From Sphingomonas taxi (lineage in GTDB: Bacteria > Pseudomonadota > Alphaproteobacteria > Sphingomonadales > Sphingomonadaceae), in contig NZ_CP009571.1 of assembly GCF_000764535.1 (NCBI RefSeq), positions 868,001-932,000 on the forward strand: 64,000 nucleotides of DNA, read 5' to 3'. How positions within the stretch are numbered: the first letter of the stretch is position 1; each line of letters starts with the position of its first letter. Shown here in pieces: positions 1,274 through 30,788 of this stretch. The notes beneath the pieces are model-generated. The model was not told the origin of the DNA. It saw only the letters and a list, made by a program, of their open reading frames with translations, and made no database searches. The translations under genes were made by a program, and so were the position numbers.

Positions 1274-1547
1274 TTCACGCGAAGACGCGAAGACGCAAAG
1301 ATGTTGCGTTCGGGAATGCTCGGCGCGCCGTCACGTCGCTCTCCGCCCCCCAATCGTCACCCCGGCGAAAGCCGGGGCCCATGGTAACGATGGTCCAGAT
1401 GGCGTGCGCAACCCCAGGCGATTGCGTGTCCATGGGTTCCGACTTTCGTCGGAATGACGAAAAGGTAGGCCGGCCGCCTCCAACAATATCCGCGCAGGCG
1501 GCCACCCCACACGAACCATCTTCGCGTCTTCGCGTCTTCGTGCGAAA
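1274..1547. repeat. nested intergenic repeat between convergent genes
   Basis: Two nested inverted repeats. The outer arms (1274-1303 and 1517-1546) contain the tandem motif CGAAGACGCGAAGACGC and its complement. The inner arms (1356-1384 and 1431-1458) carry the long-hairpin type GTCACCCCGGCGAAAGCCGG / TTCGTCGGAATGACGA. No coding potential beyond chance frames. It separates the hydrolase gene from the convergent trxB and may serve as a bidirectional terminator. Confidence 0.75.
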
Positions 1548-23524: not shown

Positions 23525-24010
23525 TTATTGCCAGCTGGTGATGTCGGCGTTGACGCCCTCGCCGCCGTCCTTGCCGTCGGCGCCGAGGCTCCAGACGTCG
23601 GCCTCGCCGTGCTGGCCGGGCGAGGCGTAGAGATAGGGGCGGCCCCAGGGATCGGGCGGCAGCTTCTTGATATAGCCGCCGCGCTGATATTCGGCGGCGT
23701 TGACGCCCGCGGGGGCGGTGACCAGCGCCTGCAGACCCTGCGACGTGGTCGGGTAGCTGTTCATCTGGAGCCGGTACATTTCCAGCGCGCCCTCGATCGT
23801 GCTAATGTCCGATTTGGCCTTGGTGATCTTGCCCTTGTCGCCGGCGGGCAGGACGTTGAACGTCACGATCGCGGCGAGCAGGCCGATGATGACGATGACG
23901 ACCATCAGCTCGACGAGCGTGAAGCCGTGTTCGGCGGAACGCCTCACGGGCGTAAAGCCCTCTTCGCGGCGGTGCGGCTTCTTCTTGGGTGTACGCATGA
24001 CTTGCCTCAT
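23525..24010 (-). CDS. gspG: type II secretion major pseudopilin G
   Basis: 161 residues. Mature helix FTLVELMVVIVIIGLLAAIV, then ALEMYRLQMNSYPTTSQGLQ, the DPWGRPYLY motif and the calcium-site-like SLGADGKDGGEG, all diagnostic of GspG. The leader is unusually long, 29 residues and rich in Lys/Arg (MRQVMRTPKKK), ending SAEHG before the cleavage site; an internal ATG at 23998 shortens it by 4 only. Start overlaps the gspF stop (ATGA). Confidence 0.93.
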   Translation of the reverse strand: MRQVMRTPKKKPHRREEGFTPVRRSAEHGFTLVELMVVIVIIGLLAAIVTFNVLPAGDKGKITKAKSDISTIEGALEMYRLQMNSYPTTSQGLQALVTAPAGVNAAEYQRGGYIKKLPPDPWGRPYLYASPGQHGEADVWSLGADGKDGGEGVNADITSWQ

Positions 24011-25230
24011 TGTCCTGCCAGCGTGTTGAGCTGGAGGATGGGGAGCAGGATGGATAGCACGATCGTCGCGACGACGCCGCCCATCACGACGATGATCGCG
24101 GGTTCGAGCAGCGACAAGGCGGTGGCGGTGAAGCGGTCGAACTCGCGTTCGAGATAGTCGGCGGCGCGTTCCAGCATCTCGTCGAGCCGCCCCGCCGCCT
24201 CGCCCGACGCCGCCAGATAGGTGAGCAAAGGCGGGAAGACGTTGGCGCGGCGCATCGCCGCCGACAGGCTGCCGCCGCCGCGGATGGCGTCGACGATCTC
24301 GTCGGAGGCGGCGCGCAGGCGGCGGTTGTGGATCGTCGAGGCGGTGAGCGCGAGCCCTTCGAGCAGCGGCAGGCGGCTGGCGATCATCGTGCTCAAGGTG
24401 CGCGACATGCGCGCGGCGTGGAGGTCGCGGAACAGCCGGCCGAGCAGCGGCAGGCGCAGCAAAGCGGTGTCGAAGGCGAGGCGCAATGCGGGGTCGCGCA
24501 GCGCGTACCAGCTGCCTAACGCCACTAACGCCACGCATAGAGCGATCAGCCACCAATAGCCGACGAGGAAGTCGGACAGGCCGATGACGATCCGGGTGAG
24601 CAGCGGCAATTGCTGTCCAACCGTATCGAATTGCTCGACAACTTGCGGGACGACGAACATCATCAGCGCGGTGACGACACCCATCGCCACGACCGCGAGG
24701 ATGGTCGGATAGGCGAGCGCGGTAATGAGCTTGGCGCGGATTTCCGCCTGGCGTTCGAGCAGCGCGGCGAGCCGGTCGAGGATCGTCGGCAGGCTGCCCG
24801 AGCTTTCGCCCGCCGAGACCATCGCGCGATAGAGCGGCGGGAAGCTCTTGCCCTCGCGCGCCATCGAATCGGCGAGGCGGCGCCCCTCGACGACGCCGGC
24901 GTGGACGTGGGCGACGATGGTGCGGACGCTGTCCTGTTCGGTCTGGCGGGTGATCGTGCGGAGCGATTCCTCGAGCGGCGAGACGCGGTTGAGCGTCGCG
25001 AGCTGGCGGGTGAAGAGGGTGAGCTGCTTGACGCTCATCTTCCTCGACCCGAATTTGATGCCGAACAGCGGGCGGCTGGTCGCCGCGGGCGGCGCGCCGG
25101 GGTCGAGGCGGACGACGTACAGCTTGCGGCGGTCGAGCTGCGCGCGCGCGGCGTCGAGCGACGGTGCGGCGACGTGGCCGCGCTGCTCCTGCCCGCGGGT
25201 GTCGATGGCGAGATAGTCGAAGTCAGCCAT
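24007..25230 (-). CDS. gspF: type II secretion inner-membrane protein F
   Basis: 407 residues with the duplicated GspF domain: cytoplasmic FTRQLATLNRVSPLEESLRT and LHAARMSRTLSTMIASRLPLL, each followed by membrane segments (VVAMGVVTALMMFVVPQVV; VVMGGVVATIVLSILLPIL). The first residues MADFDYLAIDTRGQEQRGHV are the family N-terminus, setting the ATG at 25230. It follows a repeat block rather than directly overlapping gspE. Confidence 0.93.
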   Translation of the reverse strand: MADFDYLAIDTRGQEQRGHVAAPSLDAARAQLDRRKLYVVRLDPGAPPAATSRPLFGIKFGSRKMSVKQLTLFTRQLATLNRVSPLEESLRTITRQTEQDSVRTIVAHVHAGVVEGRRLADSMAREGKSFPPLYRAMVSAGESSGSLPTILDRLAALLERQAEIRAKLITALAYPTILAVVAMGVVTALMMFVVPQVVEQFDTVGQQLPLLTRIVIGLSDFLVGYWWLIALCVALVALGSWYALRDPALRLAFDTALLRLPLLGRLFRDLHAARMSRTLSTMIASRLPLLEGLALTASTIHNRRLRAASDEIVDAIRGGGSLSAAMRRANVFPPLLTYLAASGEAAGRLDEMLERAADYLEREFDRFTATALSLLEPAIIVVMGGVVATIVLSILLPILQLNTLAGQ

Positions 25231-25528
25231 GCCATTTACGCCCGCGAGGAGAGAGCGATGGCTTATGGCGCGTGTTTGCGCGGGACATGTCCTCAATTCC
25301 ATCGTCACCCCGGACTTGTTCCGGGGTCCACCGGGCCGCAGGGGTGCGGCAGGCTCCTCCAGCCGTTCTCCTCGCCGCGGGGTGGACCCCGGAACAAGTC
25401 CGGGGTGACGGAATATTGTGGACGAAGCGATCGAGCCTCATGGGCGCCGCCATAGCCAATGGCGATGCCCTGCCGGGAACGATGGTCGCGCAGTTACGCA
25501 TCGTCCACCACCACGAGATCGGTCGCAT
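25223..25528 (-). other. open frame spanning gspE end, family A repeat and gspF start
   Basis: A reading frame of 101 codons on the gsp strand starts within the end of gspE (35 bases before its stop), crosses the whole repeat 25304-25409 and stops 8 bases inside gspF. Translation of the repeat gives phrases such as SPRTCSGVHPAAR and RWTPEQVRGDD. Could couple gspE to gspF translation; it may also be chance in such GC-rich DNA. Confidence 0.3.
25304..25409. repeat. long-hairpin repeat, family A copy 2
   Basis: Same arms as the copies near 17.3 and 37.1 kb (GTCACCCCGGACTTGTTCC and complement). Sits in the 263 bp gap between gspE and gspF inside the operon. Confidence 0.8.
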
Positions 25529-27077
25529 CCCTGCGTGACACGCGCACCGCCTCTTCCGGCGTCGTCAGGCCGCGCCGGACCAGTGCCTCGGCCGCCTGGG
25601 CGAGGCTCGGCGTGCGGGCGAAGGCGTGGGCGGCGATCGCGGTCTCGTCGGTGCCGTCGTTGATCATGCGGCGGATCGTGTCGTCCACCCGCACCGCCTC
25701 GAACACGCCGATCCGGCCCTTGAAGCCGGTGTGGTTGCATTCGGGGCAGCCGACCGATTCGTAGACGGTCGCGTCGGGCTCGATGCCGAGCAGGCCGGCG
25801 ACGCCATGCGATCCGGGCACCGCATGGCGGCAGACCGGGCAGAGCCGGCGCACCAGCCGCTGCGCGATCACCGCGCGCAAGGTCGAGGCGAGCAGGAACG
25901 GCTCGACCTTCATGTCGCGCATGCGGGTGATCGCGCCGATCGCGTCGTTGGTATGGACGGTCGAGAGCACGAGATGGCCGGTCAGCGACGCCTGCACCGC
26001 GATTTCGGCGGTCTCGCGGTCGCGGATTTCGCCGACCATGACGACGTCGGGGTCCTGGCGCAGGATCGCGCGCAGGCCGGCGGCGAAGGTCAGCCCGACC
26101 TTGGGATTGACCTGCGTCTGGCCGACGCCCTCGACGGCATATTCGACCGGGTCCTCGACGGTGAGGATGTTGCGGCTGCCGTCGTTGAGCAGGCGCAGCG
26201 CGCCGTAGAGCGTCGTCGTCTTGCCCGAACCGGTCGGCCCGGTGACGAGGATGATGCCATTGGGTTCGGCGAGCGCGCCGCGCAGCAGCGCGTACATCGC
26301 CGGATCGAGGCCCAGCGCCTCGAGATCGATGCCGGCATTGTCCTTGTCGAGGATACGCAGCACGACGCGCTCGCCGGCGCGGCTCGGCAAGGTCGAGACG
26401 CGGACGTCGAGCAGCTTGCCGCCGAGGGTGAGGCCCATGCGGCCGTCCTGCGGCACGCGCCGCTCGGCGATGTCGAGCCGGGCCATGACCTTGATGCGGC
26501 TGACGACGACGGGGGCGACGTGCGGCGGCATGCGCAGCGTCTCGCGCAGCACGCCGTCGATGCGCATGCGGACGATCAGGCCGGTCTCATAGGGCTCGAT
26601 ATGGATGTCGGAGACGCCGTTGCGCGCGGCGTCGGCGATGATGCCGTTGATCAGGCGGATCGCTGGCGCATCGTCGGCGGTGTCGAGCAGGTCCTCGGCG
26701 GTCGGCAGCCCCTCGGCGAGGCTGTCCAGCTCGTCGCCCATGCCGACCGCGGCGAGCGCATTGGCCTGACCGTCCATCGCATAATTGTCGGAGAGCAGGC
26801 GGTCGAACTGCGGCGCCTCGACGATCGATACATCGAACGGGCGGGCGAGATAGCGGCGGATCTCGATCAGCGCCTTGGGGTTAGCGCCGGCGCGCAGCGC
26901 GACGGTGAGATGCGTGTCGGTGTCGGTATGGGTGACGACGACGCCGTGCTTGCGGGCGAAGGCGTAGGGGATGGCGAGCATCGGGAGCGGCTCGGCCGCG
27001 GCGGGGGGCTCGGGCAGGACGAGGGTCTCGGGGGCGGTGTCGGGCGCGTCGAGGGCGTCGCCGGTGCGGATGATCAT
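25494..27077 (-). CDS. gspE: type II secretion ATPase E
   Basis: 527-residue cytoplasmic hexameric ATPase that powers pseudopilus assembly. Walker A GPTGSGKTT at 280-288, Asp box ILTVEDPVEY, Walker B DPDVVMVGEIRD, His box LVLSTVHTND; a zinc-binding four-Cys module at 413/416 (CPVC) and 444/447 (CPEC) is intact. An N1-like region precedes. The ATG at 27077 overlaps, by 4 bases, the end of the repeat-derived reading frame rather than gspD itself. Confidence 0.95.
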   Translation of the reverse strand: MIIRTGDALDAPDTAPETLVLPEPPAAAEPLPMLAIPYAFARKHGVVVTHTDTDTHLTVALRAGANPKALIEIRRYLARPFDVSIVEAPQFDRLLSDNYAMDGQANALAAVGMGDELDSLAEGLPTAEDLLDTADDAPAIRLINGIIADAARNGVSDIHIEPYETGLIVRMRIDGVLRETLRMPPHVAPVVVSRIKVMARLDIAERRVPQDGRMGLTLGGKLLDVRVSTLPSRAGERVVLRILDKDNAGIDLEALGLDPAMYALLRGALAEPNGIILVTGPTGSGKTTTLYGALRLLNDGSRNILTVEDPVEYAVEGVGQTQVNPKVGLTFAAGLRAILRQDPDVVMVGEIRDRETAEIAVQASLTGHLVLSTVHTNDAIGAITRMRDMKVEPFLLASTLRAVIAQRLVRRLCPVCRHAVPGSHGVAGLLGIEPDATVYESVGCPECNHTGFKGRIGVFEAVRVDDTIRRMINDGTDETAIAAHAFARTPSLAQAAEALVRRGLTTPEEAVRVSRRDATDLVVVDDA

Positions 27078-27712
27078 TGCTGGTGCCTAACCGGGTTCGT
27101 CATTCCCGTGGTGGAGTCGATGTCCCTGACGGCCGCCTCCCCCCCTTCGTCATCCCCGCGCAGGCGGGGATCCAGACGCGCGGGTGTCGCGATGGCGCCG
27201 CAAGGTCCGCGGGTATGGATCCCCGCCTGCGCGGGGATGACGGTGTTGGGGGTGAGAGGTGCGCCCTCTTCCTTCGTCATCCCGGCTGAGGCCGGGACCC
27301 ATGGGTGCGGGTCGTTGATGGCGCGCGCCGACGCCGGTTGCGCCGCGTCCATGGGTCCCGGCTTTCGCCGGGATGACGATGGGGGGAGCGTCCTCCCCGA
27401 TAGTCCCGTGGCGGTGGGGAGAATCGCGACGGGCGCCTCCCCCTTCTCGTCATCCCCGCGGAGGCGGGGATCCAGACGCGCAGGTGTTGCGATGGCGCCG
27501 TAAGGTCCGCGCGTATGGATCCCCGCCTGCGCGGGGATGACAGAGTTGGGGGTGAGGCGGGCGCCCTCCCCGTTCGTCATCCCGGCGGAGGCCGGGAGCC
27601 ATGGGTGCGGGACGTTGATAGCGCGTGCCGACGCCGACCGCGCCGTGTCCATGGGTCCCGGCTTTCGCCGGGATGACGATGGGGGGGTATGCGCGGCGGG
27701 CGTGTTGCTCAT
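27074..27712 (-). other. repeat-derived open frame bridging gspD and gspE
   Basis: 212 codons, starting with an ATG that overlaps the gspD stop (ATGA at 27709-27712) and ending with a TGA overlapping the gspE ATG (27074-27077). The product is two near-identical 100-residue copies with recurring phrases SSSRRKPGPMD, PWVPASAGMT, VIPAQAGIHTRG, LDPRLRGDD, which are translations of the hairpin arms. No known domain. A real protein is doubtful, but the geometry suits translational coupling. See the separate repeat entry. Confidence 0.4.
27148..27678. repeat. 300 bp tandem duplication of paired long hairpins (family B)
   Basis: Two units with exact 300 bp spacing. Each has hairpin a (27148-27242; 27448-27541; arms CGTCATCCCCGCGCAGGCGG and complement) and hairpin b (27275-27378; 27575-27678; arms CGTCATCCCGGCTGAGGCCG and a complement carrying GGCTTTCGCCGGGATGACG). 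Copies differ by scattered substitutions without frame-breaking changes. Not CRISPR: no short direct repeats with unique spacers. Confidence 0.85.
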
Positions 27713-29946
27713 CGGTCCCTCGGGCGGATGACCTTCGTCGTATTGTGCTGGATCGGCACCGCGATGCGCGGGTCCTCGATGTTGCCGGGGATCGGTGCCG
27801 AGGGGATCGGCGGTGCGGCGCCGAGATAGTCGCGGACCAGCTGGTCGATCGACGGCTCCTCATTGGGCGATTGCAGCCCCTGTTGCAGGCGGATGTAGCC
27901 GTAGCGCTGCTCGGCGACCCGGCGGCTGTCGGCGGCGCTGCGCAGGATCGTCGGGCGGATGAAGATCATGAGGTTGGTCTTGTTGCGCGACTTGGCCTTC
28001 GACTTGAACAGGTTGCCGAGCACCGGGATGTCGCCGAGCAGCGGGATCTTCTCGATCGTGCGGCGCTCCTCGTCGCTGAGCAGGCCGCCCATCACCGCGA
28101 TCTGGCCCTCGTCGACGGTCAGCGTCGTCTCGATCTCACGCTTGTTGAGGATGAGGTCGCTGTTGTCGCTCGACACCGGGCCGGCGATCGAGCTGACCTC
28201 GAGGCGCAGGTTGAGCTTGACCGTGCCGGACGAATTGACTTGCGGCCGCGCGGTCAGCTCGATGCCGACATTCTCGCGCTGCGTGGTGCGGAAGGTGTTG
28301 TCGAAATTGTTCGACAGCGCCTGGCCGGTGGTGATCGGAATTTCCTGGCCGACGAGGCTGTGCGCTTCCTGATTGTCGACCGTCACCAGATGCGGGACCT
28401 GCAACAGGTTCGACGTCGTATCGCTCTTCACCGCGTTGATGATCGCGCCGAACAGGACGTCGCCGATCTTGCCGCCGAAGCCGCCGAAACCGCCGGTCGA
28501 GCTGAGGATCGAATTGAGCGCCGACTGGGTGAGCGTATCGGACGCGGTATTGTTGGTCACGGTGGTGACAACGCCGTTCGCGACCGTCGTCGTGGTGTTG
28601 TTCGACAGTTCGCGCGCGCCGATCGCGCCGGCGATCTGGAGGATGTTGGGCGCGCTGTTCGAGAAGGTCGAGGCCGCGAAGGCGCCGCCCGACGGGTTCG
28701 CGAGGACGAATTGCGCGCCGAGCTTGTTGACCGTCGAATCGGAGACTTCGGCGACGATCCCCTCGATCAGCACCTGTTCGCGGCGGGTGTCGAGCTGGCG
28801 GACGACGTCGGCCAATTGCCGCTGGATATCGGCGGGCGCGGCGATGACGATCGCGTTCGCGCCCTGGAACCGGGTGACGACCGCGGCGGTACGCCCGCCC
28901 TGGGTGGTGATCGCAGGCTGGTTGGGGCCGTTGGCGCTGCCGCCGCCGCTCGGCTGCTGGACCGGTGCCTGCGTCACCTGACGCTGCTGGCTCTGGCCGC
29001 CGCTGCCGCCGGTGCTGCTGCCGAAGCCGGTCTGGGTGCGCGAAAGCTGCGTCTCCTGCACCGCATCGGGGGTCTGGCCGACGAGCTGCTGGAGCACGGG
29101 GAGCAATTGCGCGGCGTCGGCATTCTCAAGGAAGACGACGCGGATCTCGGTGCCGTTCTTCGCTTTCTGGTCGAGGTCCTGCGCGACCTGGACGAGGCGC
29201 GCGACGCTGTTGGCGTCGCCGCGGATGATGACCGAATTGCTGCTGTCGACCGCGGTGACGCTGGTGCCGACGCCGCCCTGCGCACCGCCGCCGCCCTGCC
29301 CGCCGGGCGCGCCGGTGGCGAGGCCCTGCAGGGCGGCGGCGATCTCCTTCGCGCTGGCGTTCTTGAGCGCGACGACGCGGGTCGAGGCATTGTCGGCATC
29401 GACGCGGCGCAGCACCTCGCGGATACGGCGGATGTTGTCGCCGAAATCGACGACGACGAGGCTGTTCGAGCCGCGATTGGCGCTGACCGACCCTTGCGCG
29501 CTGACCAGCGGGCGCACCGTCTCGATCGCCTGCGTCGCGTCGATCGAGCGGAGGCGGACGATCTCGGTGACGAAGCTGTTGCGGTTGGCGCCGGCCGACC
29601 CGATGCGGCTCGGCTGCGAGGCGGCATTGTCGATCGGCTGGATGCGGAAGGCACCGTTGCCGGTCGGCACCGCGACGAGGCCGTTGGCGCGCAGCGTCGA
29701 CAGGAAGGTCTCGAAATATTCGGAGCGGCTGAGCGGCCGGTCGGTGACCACCGTCACCTTGCCGTTGACGCGCGCGTCGATGATGAAGGTGCGGCCCGTC
29801 ACCTTGGCGGCGTCGGCGATGAAGGCGCGGATGTCGGCGTCGCGGACGTTGAGCGTGGTCTGGGCCAGCGCCGTCGTCGGCAGCGCGAGCGCGGCGGTGG
29901 ACAGCAGCAGGGCGGAGGCGAGCGTCTTCATGGGAACCGTCTTCAT
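27709..29946 (-). CDS. gspD: type II secretion secretin GspD
   Basis: 745-residue outer-membrane secretin. Signal peptide MKTLASALLLSTAALALPTTALA-like at the start, N0 domain (LNVRDADIRAFIADAAKVTG), three N1-N3 KH-like domains with a long Gly/Gln/Ser-rich linker in N3 (around the GGSGGQSQQRQV stretch), then the secretin core (VPHLVTVDNQEAHSLVGQE, TLTVDEGQIAVMGGLLSDEE, PLLGDIPVLGNLFKS). The ATG at 29946 overlaps the gspC stop (TGATG); a TTG at 29949 is also possible. No GspS pilotin is seen in the window. Confidence 0.95.
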   Translation of the reverse strand: MKTVPMKTLASALLLSTAALALPTTALAQTTLNVRDADIRAFIADAAKVTGRTFIIDARVNGKVTVVTDRPLSRSEYFETFLSTLRANGLVAVPTGNGAFRIQPIDNAASQPSRIGSAGANRNSFVTEIVRLRSIDATQAIETVRPLVSAQGSVSANRGSNSLVVVDFGDNIRRIREVLRRVDADNASTRVVALKNASAKEIAAALQGLATGAPGGQGGGGAQGGVGTSVTAVDSSNSVIIRGDANSVARLVQVAQDLDQKAKNGTEIRVVFLENADAAQLLPVLQQLVGQTPDAVQETQLSRTQTGFGSSTGGSGGQSQQRQVTQAPVQQPSGGGSANGPNQPAITTQGGRTAAVVTRFQGANAIVIAAPADIQRQLADVVRQLDTRREQVLIEGIVAEVSDSTVNKLGAQFVLANPSGGAFAASTFSNSAPNILQIAGAIGARELSNNTTTTVANGVVTTVTNNTASDTLTQSALNSILSSTGGFGGFGGKIGDVLFGAIINAVKSDTTSNLLQVPHLVTVDNQEAHSLVGQEIPITTGQALSNNFDNTFRTTQRENVGIELTARPQVNSSGTVKLNLRLEVSSIAGPVSSDNSDLILNKREIETTLTVDEGQIAVMGGLLSDEERRTIEKIPLLGDIPVLGNLFKSKAKSRNKTNLMIFIRPTILRSAADSRRVAEQRYGYIRLQQGLQSPNEEPSIDQLVRDYLGAAPPIPSAPIPGNIEDPRIAVPIQHNTTKVIRPRDR

Positions 29947-30788
29947 CAATTGGGCGCGATCGTGATGGCGAGCGCAAGCGTCTGCGACCCACGTTCGACG
30001 GTGATGGGGATGTTGCCGCCGCCGGCGAAATCGGCGGTGACGCGGTCGAGGTCCTGCGGGCCGCTGACCGGCCGGCCGCCGATCGCGGTGACGACGTCGC
30101 CGTCGCGCAGGCCGGCGTTGCGGAACAGCGCGCCCGACCCCTGCGAGCGGACGACGAGCCCGGAGATGCGGCCCGAATCGATGCGCGGGATGAAGCCGAT
30201 CTCGTTGCGGATCTGATTGGCGCGGATCGCCGCGGGGGCGCCGGTGCCGGGCGACGGCGGCGCGGGCGGCGTGCCGGGGGCGCCGAGCGCGGCGGGCTGG
30301 GCGCCGGCGGGCGCGTCGGACTGGACGAGGAACAGATCCTCGGCGGTGCCGCCGCGATCGATGGTGATATGGTCGAAGGCGACCGCCTTCAATCGGACGC
30401 CGGGCTGGATCTCCTCGCCGACCGCGACGCTCTTCTGGACGTTGTCGGGACCGGCGAGGATCGCCGAGCCGCGGCCCGACGCCTCGTCGACGCGGATGCC
30501 GAACAGCGTCAGCTGGAGCGAGGTGACGGTCGCCGGCCCCTGTTGCGGCCCGCCGAGCCGGAAGAAGGGATCGAACCCGGCGAGCACGTCATAGGGGCGG
30601 CCGGGCACGGTGACCGCCGCCGGGCGCCAGTCGCCGAGCGGCGACACCGGCGTGACGAGCGTCCACACCAGTCGCGCGCTCTGCGTCGCCAGTCCTGCGA
30701 TCAGGATCAGCTCGGCCAGCGAATAGACGTTCACGACGGGCAAGCGGCGCAAAAGGCGCCGCGTGCGCGCGTCGAGTTTCAAGCGCAT
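29946..30788 (-). CDS. gspC: type II secretion system protein C
   Basis: 280 residues. Cytoplasmic basic N-terminus, one membrane helix (LAELILIAGLATQSARLVWTL), HR domain (SLQLTLFGIRVDEASGRGSAIL, VAVGEEIQPGVRLKAVAFDHI), a Pro/Ala-rich linker and a C-terminal PDZ domain (GLVVRSQGSGALFRNAGLRD GDVVTAIGG). It links the platform to the secretin and probably recognises substrates. First gene of the gsp operon; no gspO prepilin peptidase is present in the window. Confidence 0.93.
   Translation of the reverse strand: MRLKLDARTRRLLRRLPVVNVYSLAELILIAGLATQSARLVWTLVTPVSPLGDWRPAAVTVPGRPYDVLAGFDPFFRLGGPQQGPATVTSLQLTLFGIRVDEASGRGSAILAGPDNVQKSVAVGEEIQPGVRLKAVAFDHITIDRGGTAEDLFLVQSDAPAGAQPAALGAPGTPPAPPSPGTGAPAAIRANQIRNEIGFIPRIDSGRISGLVVRSQGSGALFRNAGLRDGDVVTAIGGRPVSGPQDLDRVTADFAGGGNIPITVERGSQTLALAITIAPN

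Follow-up and report, generated by a model that had tools for sequence, protein, structure and literature searches.

The question raised by this locus is why a long block of repeats, lying between gspD and gspE in the gsp operon of Sphingomonas taxi, can be read from end to end as one open frame that joins the stop codon of the first gene to the start codon of the second. The window analysed here is a stretch of 64,000 nucleotides (assembly GCF_000764535.1, contig NZ_CP009571.1, positions 868,001 to 932,000), in which the genes gspC to gspK of the operon were named by Pfam. We use the term relay ORF for an open frame running from the stop of one gene to the start of the next, and the relevant features, in window coordinates, are as follows.

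27709..29949, minus strand: gspD, the secretin (Pfam PF00263, PF03958, PF21305), with stop TGA 27711-27709
27074..27712, minus strand: relay ORF between gspD and gspE, 212 codons, with a -4 overlap (ATGA) at either end
27404..27686, minus strand: REP unit 1 (in transcription order), two head-to-head CGTC-REP dimers
27104..27386, minus strand: REP unit 2, two head-to-head CGTC-REP dimers, 87% identical to unit 1
25494..27077, minus strand: gspE, the ATPase (Pfam PF00437, PF22341), with ATG at 27077 and stop TAA 25496-25494
25223..25501, minus strand: relay ORF between gspE and gspF, 92 codons, with -8 overlaps (ATGCGTAA and ATGGCTGA) at its two ends
25303..25409, no strand assigned: inverted repeat in the gspE-gspF gap, from a different family, its arms at 25303-25331 and 25381-25409 as read in the sequence
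24007..25230, minus strand: gspF (Pfam PF00482), with ATG at 25230

The ATG (27712) of the relay ORF between gspD and gspE shares bases with the gspD TGA, as does its TGA (27076-27074) with the gspE ATG (27077); the start of gspD itself may be the TTG at 29949 or a later ATG. The original prediction described two repeat copies spaced by exactly 300 bp within a single open frame carrying ATGA at both ends, and both descriptions hold, the copies measuring 283 nt each with a start-to-start distance of 300 nt and filling most of the frame. The importance attached to this exact spacing finds no support, as the units of one relative (G182) are spaced by 318 and the other eight genomes show no tandem unit. 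Nor are all other junctions of the operon overlaps of 1-8 bp, as had been claimed; measured from nominal starts, the distances are C-D -4, E-F +263, F-G +8, G-H +2, H-I -1 and I-J +5, with an overlap at J-K. The gspD-gspE junction is furthermore not the sole odd one, as gspE-gspF has a repeat and a relay ORF of its own, whose ATG (25501) and TGA (at 25223) give overlaps of 8 nt with the gspE stop (ATGCGTAA) and the gspF start (ATGGCTGA), respectively. The joint spacings are -4 for gspD-relay, -4 for relay-gspE, -8 for gspE-relay and -8 for relay-gspF, and neither relay ORF (27074-27712 and 25223-25501) gave a Pfam match.

The repeat between gspD and gspE is a known one, the CGTC-tagged REP. 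A pattern search allowing up to 3 mismatches returned eight CGTC-type REPs between 27148 and 27678, where shuffles of the whole window gave a mean of 0.06, and the REP at 27148-27174 reads CGTC-ATCCCCGC-GCAG-GCGGGGAT-CCA. In the available excerpts of PMC3733652, this class is defined by a terminal unpaired CGTC, a stem of 8-9 bp, a loop of 4-5 nt and a short CCA tail, and its members occur mostly as head-to-head (HH) dimers with the tags outside; here we find the CGTC tag, an 8-bp stem, a 4-nt loop, the CCA tail and head-to-head dimers, the four dimers in the relay being arranged in + then - orientation with CGTC tags outside. The genome contains 79 exact matches to the pattern, seven of them in the gspD-gspE relay, and none to the reversed pattern. 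It is in position that the present case differs, as those excerpts place CGTC-tagged REPs mainly between genes or inside single ORFs and describe no relay ORFs between genes. The same source, in part, equates the Rickettsia palindromic elements RPE-4 and RPE-6 with CGTC-4 and CGTC-1; these likewise show the REP superfamily tolerated as translated sequence, although inside proteins and not as a conveyor between genes. A single degenerate CGTC REP (2 mismatches) also lies at 1355-1377 (+) of the window.

A GspE search of 295 genomes of the genus yielded 181 matches at an E of 1e-200 or better, and the gspD-gspE junction was read in 43 of these 181, comprising the ten with the closest GspE (89-100% identity, the window counted among them) plus 33 more. 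The insert is present in all ten nearest genomes, with 1-11 REPs by pattern, while a REP was found at none of the 33 other loci read from the genus, in 30 of which the gspE start overlaps the gspD stop directly by 4 nt. The gaps of the ten genomes are given below, together with those at a second junction, DUF2849-cysI (identified by Pfam DUF2849 and NIR_SIR).

G000: gspD-gspE gap 631 nt, DUF2849-cysI gap 810 nt
G182: gspD-gspE gap 919 nt, DUF2849-cysI gap 672 nt
G177: gspD-gspE gap 265 nt, DUF2849-cysI gap 537 nt
G017: gspD-gspE gap 424 nt, DUF2849-cysI gap 177 nt
G008: gspD-gspE gap 136 nt, DUF2849-cysI gap 297 nt
G173: gspD-gspE gap 331 nt, DUF2849-cysI gap 120 nt
G258: gspD-gspE gap 625 nt, DUF2849-cysI gap 855 nt
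G106: gspD-gspE gap 583 nt, DUF2849-cysI gap 117 nt
G098: gspD-gspE gap 262 nt, DUF2849-cysI gap 270 nt
G147: gspD-gspE gap 271 nt, DUF2849-cysI gap 213 nt

The gspD-gspE gap thus has ten distinct lengths in ten genomes (136-919 nt), and all are 1 mod 3. Without exception, the relay frame is open from an RTG overlapping the gspD stop (ATG in two genomes, GTG in eight) to a TGA overlapping the gspE start, which in G098 is an in-frame ATG two codons before the aligned one; the other two frames contain 40 and 13 stops in 1479 codons. On a tree of the ten genomes, built from 5.5 kb of coding DNA, the end branches measure 0.03-0.08 changes per site and the inner branches, two of which are without support, are mostly shorter, except for the stem of G098 and G147 (0.093). 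Ten distinct lengths require at least nine length changes on any tree, and were phase free, the chance of its being kept by nine changes would be about (1/3)^9 = 5e-5, with openness uncounted. Most individual indels between species would shift the frame, and yet their net sum is divisible by three; G098 and G147, for example, are separated by indels of 1, 4, 2, 1, 4, 4, 10 and 19, with a net of 9. A TGA is present in every reverse REP and blocks one of the three frames. Among the 24 reverse REPs of the gspD-gspE relays this TGA falls in the relay frame in no case and in the two harmless frames in 19 and 5, and therefore the dimers differ in the frame that is read, yet no stop arose. The corresponding counts in the relay frame are 0/8 at DUF2849-cysI, 0/5 at a further junction (ppsR-maf) and 4/7 in control gaps. 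The relay peptide is not conserved, its length ranging from about 47 to 308 codons, and no shared peptide beyond the REP-coded words was seen in the ten genomes.

Tight relays are present at gspD-gspE in 10/10 genomes, where shuffles with random phase give 0.09; as the genomes are related, the P values of these random-phase shuffle tests overstate the case. The open frame of the window taken alone is only mildly unusual, because 15% of dinucleotide shuffles of its gspD-gspE gap stay open in the relay frame. The excess over chance comes from the cross-species comparison and not from the single open frame. The original prediction had offered either chance or selection for coupling. That phase and openness are kept in 10/10 genomes despite varying unit number and length, and that relatives carrying the repeat with frame shifts or stops were sought among nine and not found, supports selection for a frame that runs unbroken to the start of gspE; the hand-over of ribosomes is our inference. 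Most inserts keep a purine-rich sequence before the gspE start, and as such independent initiation is possible; predicted RNA folding at the gspE start showed no clear difference between genomes with and without the insert.

The gspE-gspF junction was surveyed at 85 of 123 GspE loci, drawn from the genus and from named records mostly of Sphingomonadales, the remaining 38 belonging mostly to other orders, and 81 of the 85 were distinct loci with both genes. A relay was counted where the distance was at most 20 nt both between the gspE stop and an ATG, GTG or TTG and between a stop and the gspF start. The two genes overlap by exactly 8 nt in 29 of the 81 loci and are separated by more than 30 nt in 42; every one of these 42 has a relay, several of them starting with TTG, and in 41 the relay stop lies within 8 nt of the gspF start. 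The relay of G177 is weak, in that its stop lies 18 nt before gspF and a better frame is without a start. Counting one locus per gap length, 22 of 23 are tight relays, where shuffled interiors with random phase expect 0.31. The locus of G017, considered as a broken relay, was rejected as such, the relay ending directly before the gspF ATG. Words related to the gspE-gspF inverted repeat occur at other junctions of relatives.

Repeats are also seen beside the prepilin genes. The gspG leader (window 23525-23998, minus strand) contains the doubled motif GFTPVRRSAEHGFTL, with comparable tandem copies 5' of gspH in G173, and at loci L154-L162 of relatives (gspG-gspH, gspH-gspI and gspI-gspJ) repeats lie immediately 5' of prepilin genes. 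The latter are open and in frame with an RTG overlapping the preceding stop, and hence translation through them could place a long N-terminal leader ahead of the GFTL motif, possible examples being gspJ in G098, G147, G177 and G182 and gspI in G177; an N-terminal leader in this position would be removed by prepilin peptidase.

The genome of the window has 47 other REP clusters, 27 of them between co-directional genes (by crude gene calls). Only four of these 27 sites pass the relay test, and as such we rejected the proposal that a REP within an operon always makes a relay; the relay is therefore not a property of REPs. Three of the four, chosen for their relay in the genome of the window, were followed in the ten genomes: DUF2849-cysI, kinase/pyrophosphorylase (ppsR)-maf, and radA-cvpA. 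At DUF2849-cysI there are again ten distinct gap lengths (117-855 nt), all 0 mod 3 and open in 10/10, with 0 stops in 1356 codons of the relay frame versus 27 and 12 in the others. These relays start at ATGA in eight genomes and CTGATG in two, all end at the same TAA inside ATGTATAA, and are tight in 10/10, where random-phase shuffles give 0.12. Beyond the ten, G044, G124 and G024 lack an insert, and G149 and G100 have short inserts with an ORF ending 8 and 6 nt before cysI. At ppsR-maf, nine genomes have inserts and the tenth, G258, has a direct overlap; a relay is present in 7/9 (exceptions G017 and G173) and is tight in 6/9, with 0.31 in random-phase shuffles, and in G100, which is not one of the ten, the insert forms no relay. 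Over the four junctions gspD-gspE, gspE-gspF, DUF2849-cysI and ppsR-maf, an open frame ends near the next start in 69 of 71 inserts over 30 nt.

The third site, radA-cvpA, looked like a relay in the genome of the window and was rejected on comparison: its phases are 5/4/1, its 3/10 relays are at the level of length-keeping shuffles (0.28), tight relays number 0/10, and it is not an overlap in the readable outgroups either. Together with mutM-rpsT and lgt-midA it makes up three control gaps in the same ten genomes (pncB was dropped as a control, its neighbour having been found in 5/10 genomes, too few to use). The phases of mutM-rpsT are 5/5/0 and those of lgt-midA 4/4/2, and relays number 0/20 over these two; shuffles also give nearly none (0.08 and 0.003), and therefore the two gaps are informative on phase and openness and not on relay counts. 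Across the 30 control gaps (70-396 nt) the would-be relay frame is open in 5, and from the mixed phases it follows that neither repeat DNA nor the genus forces one phase.

Three further loci deserve mention in their own right. The fourth relay-like ORF in the genome of the window (L190, 96 codons) starts 18 nt after the upstream stop and ends 4 nt into the next gene. At L186 of the same genome, two phage-like genes are separated by a REP dimer that is free of in-frame stops, shares the reading frame of the downstream gene and reads as an N-terminal extension from a GTG overlapping the upstream stop. The lgt match in G173 (L288) falls into two overlapping pieces, one with in-frame TGA codons, and this lgt may therefore be shifted or misassembled.

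The reading that we consider likely, on comparative grounds, is that an insert at a coupled junction survives in the form of a relay ORF, through which ribosomes are handed to the next gene by termination-reinitiation. In the ancestral state, gspD and gspE would have overlapped directly (RTGA), as in most of the relatives read, and REP dimers would have entered this overlap, probably once, in an ancestor of the ten present species. After insertion, gspD would have retained its stop and the old RTG start, and gspE would have acquired a new ATG behind the insert. A ribosome that terminates at the gspD stop may then restart on the RTG lying across it and read through the repeat, producing a peptide of no use; termination at the TGA that lies across the gspE ATG would allow a second restart, making two reinitiations in series. 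Selection would keep the net frame and the absence of stops, while REP number, spacers and the frame of the dimer (two being stop-free) would drift, and the same outcome would have been reached at gspE-gspF, with its -8 overlaps, and at DUF2849-cysI. According to the available part of PMC10666635, reinitiation in the native pairs tested in E. coli and Haloferax falls steeply with distance, with little or nothing at 22-38 nt, and thus, over an insert of 136-919 nt, gspE would lose most of its coupling to gspD if ribosomes were not carried across; a synthetic system cited in that source showed coupling that persisted over 150-850 nt. The -4, -1 and -8 joint spacings are those described for termination-reinitiation at overlapping genes (PMC6728339 and PMC10666635, each in part), the difference being that here two joints stand in series with a repeat-coded ORF between them.

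The main rival to coupling is that ribosomes are needed only to cover the GC-rich repeat RNA, preventing Rho-dependent polarity or RNA decay before gspE is reached, with no reinitiation required at gspE. Under this explanation an open frame is expected, inserts of up to 919 nt are long enough to expose RNA, and Rho polarity on untranslated RNA is established (PMC12548453, in part). However, shielding requires openness and not a fixed phase, and phase is fixed in 10/10 genomes at gspD-gspE and 10/10 at DUF2849-cysI; it also leaves unexplained why relays end at the next start, as within 8 nt in 41/42 cases at gspE-gspF, and untranslated repeats do exist in co-directional gaps, at 23 of 27 sites, although genes there may have promoters of their own. 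Shielding in place of coupling therefore strikes us as unlikely, though both may act, and we infer that coupling is the trait under selection.

It is far less probable that GC-rich, stop-poor REP DNA simply happens to be open. The shuffles of the window's gap might allow as much for a single genome, one of three frames is closed by a REP dimer and the other two are not, and the relatives share ancestry; against this, two junctions each underwent nine or more changes of length without loss of phase, at a probability of about (1/3)^9 per junction, the control gaps are mixed in phase with the corresponding frame open in 5/30, and stop-phase REPs are absent from the relays. In E. coli, REPs affect mRNA stability, with stabilisation of the upstream RNA, and also affect ribosomes near stop codons. 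Such effects may act beside the relay. That REPs are kept for an effect of their own, such as raising gspD over gspE by stabilising the upstream RNA, with the open frame as a by-product, accords with their location in other species between operon genes and near the 3' ends of upstream ORFs (PMC3733652, in part), but it sits poorly with pattern counts of REPs that range from 1 to 11 and leaves the fixed phase unaccounted for, and we give it very little credence. Least probable of all is that the relay codes for a small secretion-system protein with a function, for while the frame is open, phase-kept and within a conserved operon, its length swings from about 47 to 308 codons with no Pfam match and no common peptide beyond REP-coded words, two different reading frames run through the REPs (19 and 5 of the 24 in reverse orientation), and DUF2849-cysI and gspE-gspF do likewise with other sequence.

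The nearest precedent for relay ORFs is found in the mycobacterial MIRUs (Supply et al. 1997, as related in part of a 2025 review, PMC12548453), which insert at start codons and carry an ORF coupled by a -4 overlap, such that the insertion does little harm. A -4 overlap is present at both ends of the gspD-gspE relay. The portion of the review at hand places the MIRU ORF within the MIRU itself, whereas the palindromic CGTC REP fixes no frame; the dimers here are read in two frames, which means that the repeat does not dictate the frame, and internal frames drift. Joints with -8 overlaps are found as well, and the frame is kept across species despite changes in length. Beyond this MIRU remark, we found no earlier report of relay ORFs in a mostly open-access literature, and as far as that literature shows, the REP substrate, the free internal frame, the -8 version and the natural length-change test with controls are new.

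The need for translational coupling in nature has been argued mainly from gene spacing and from reporters, and here evolution ran the test. Should translation of the relays be confirmed, the approach would allow coupling to be tested comparatively, one gene pair at a time, would explain a class of low-complexity "hypothetical proteins" built of REP words, and would show how repeats settle inside operons without breaking them. We lean, if only somewhat, toward a general rule, that where non-coding repeats enter translationally coupled junctions, it is the variants forming an open relay that survive. If this rule is true, relay ORFs would be translated frames selected only to convey ribosomes, with no function as proteins, and their maintenance from species to species would point to the operon junctions where coupling is needed.
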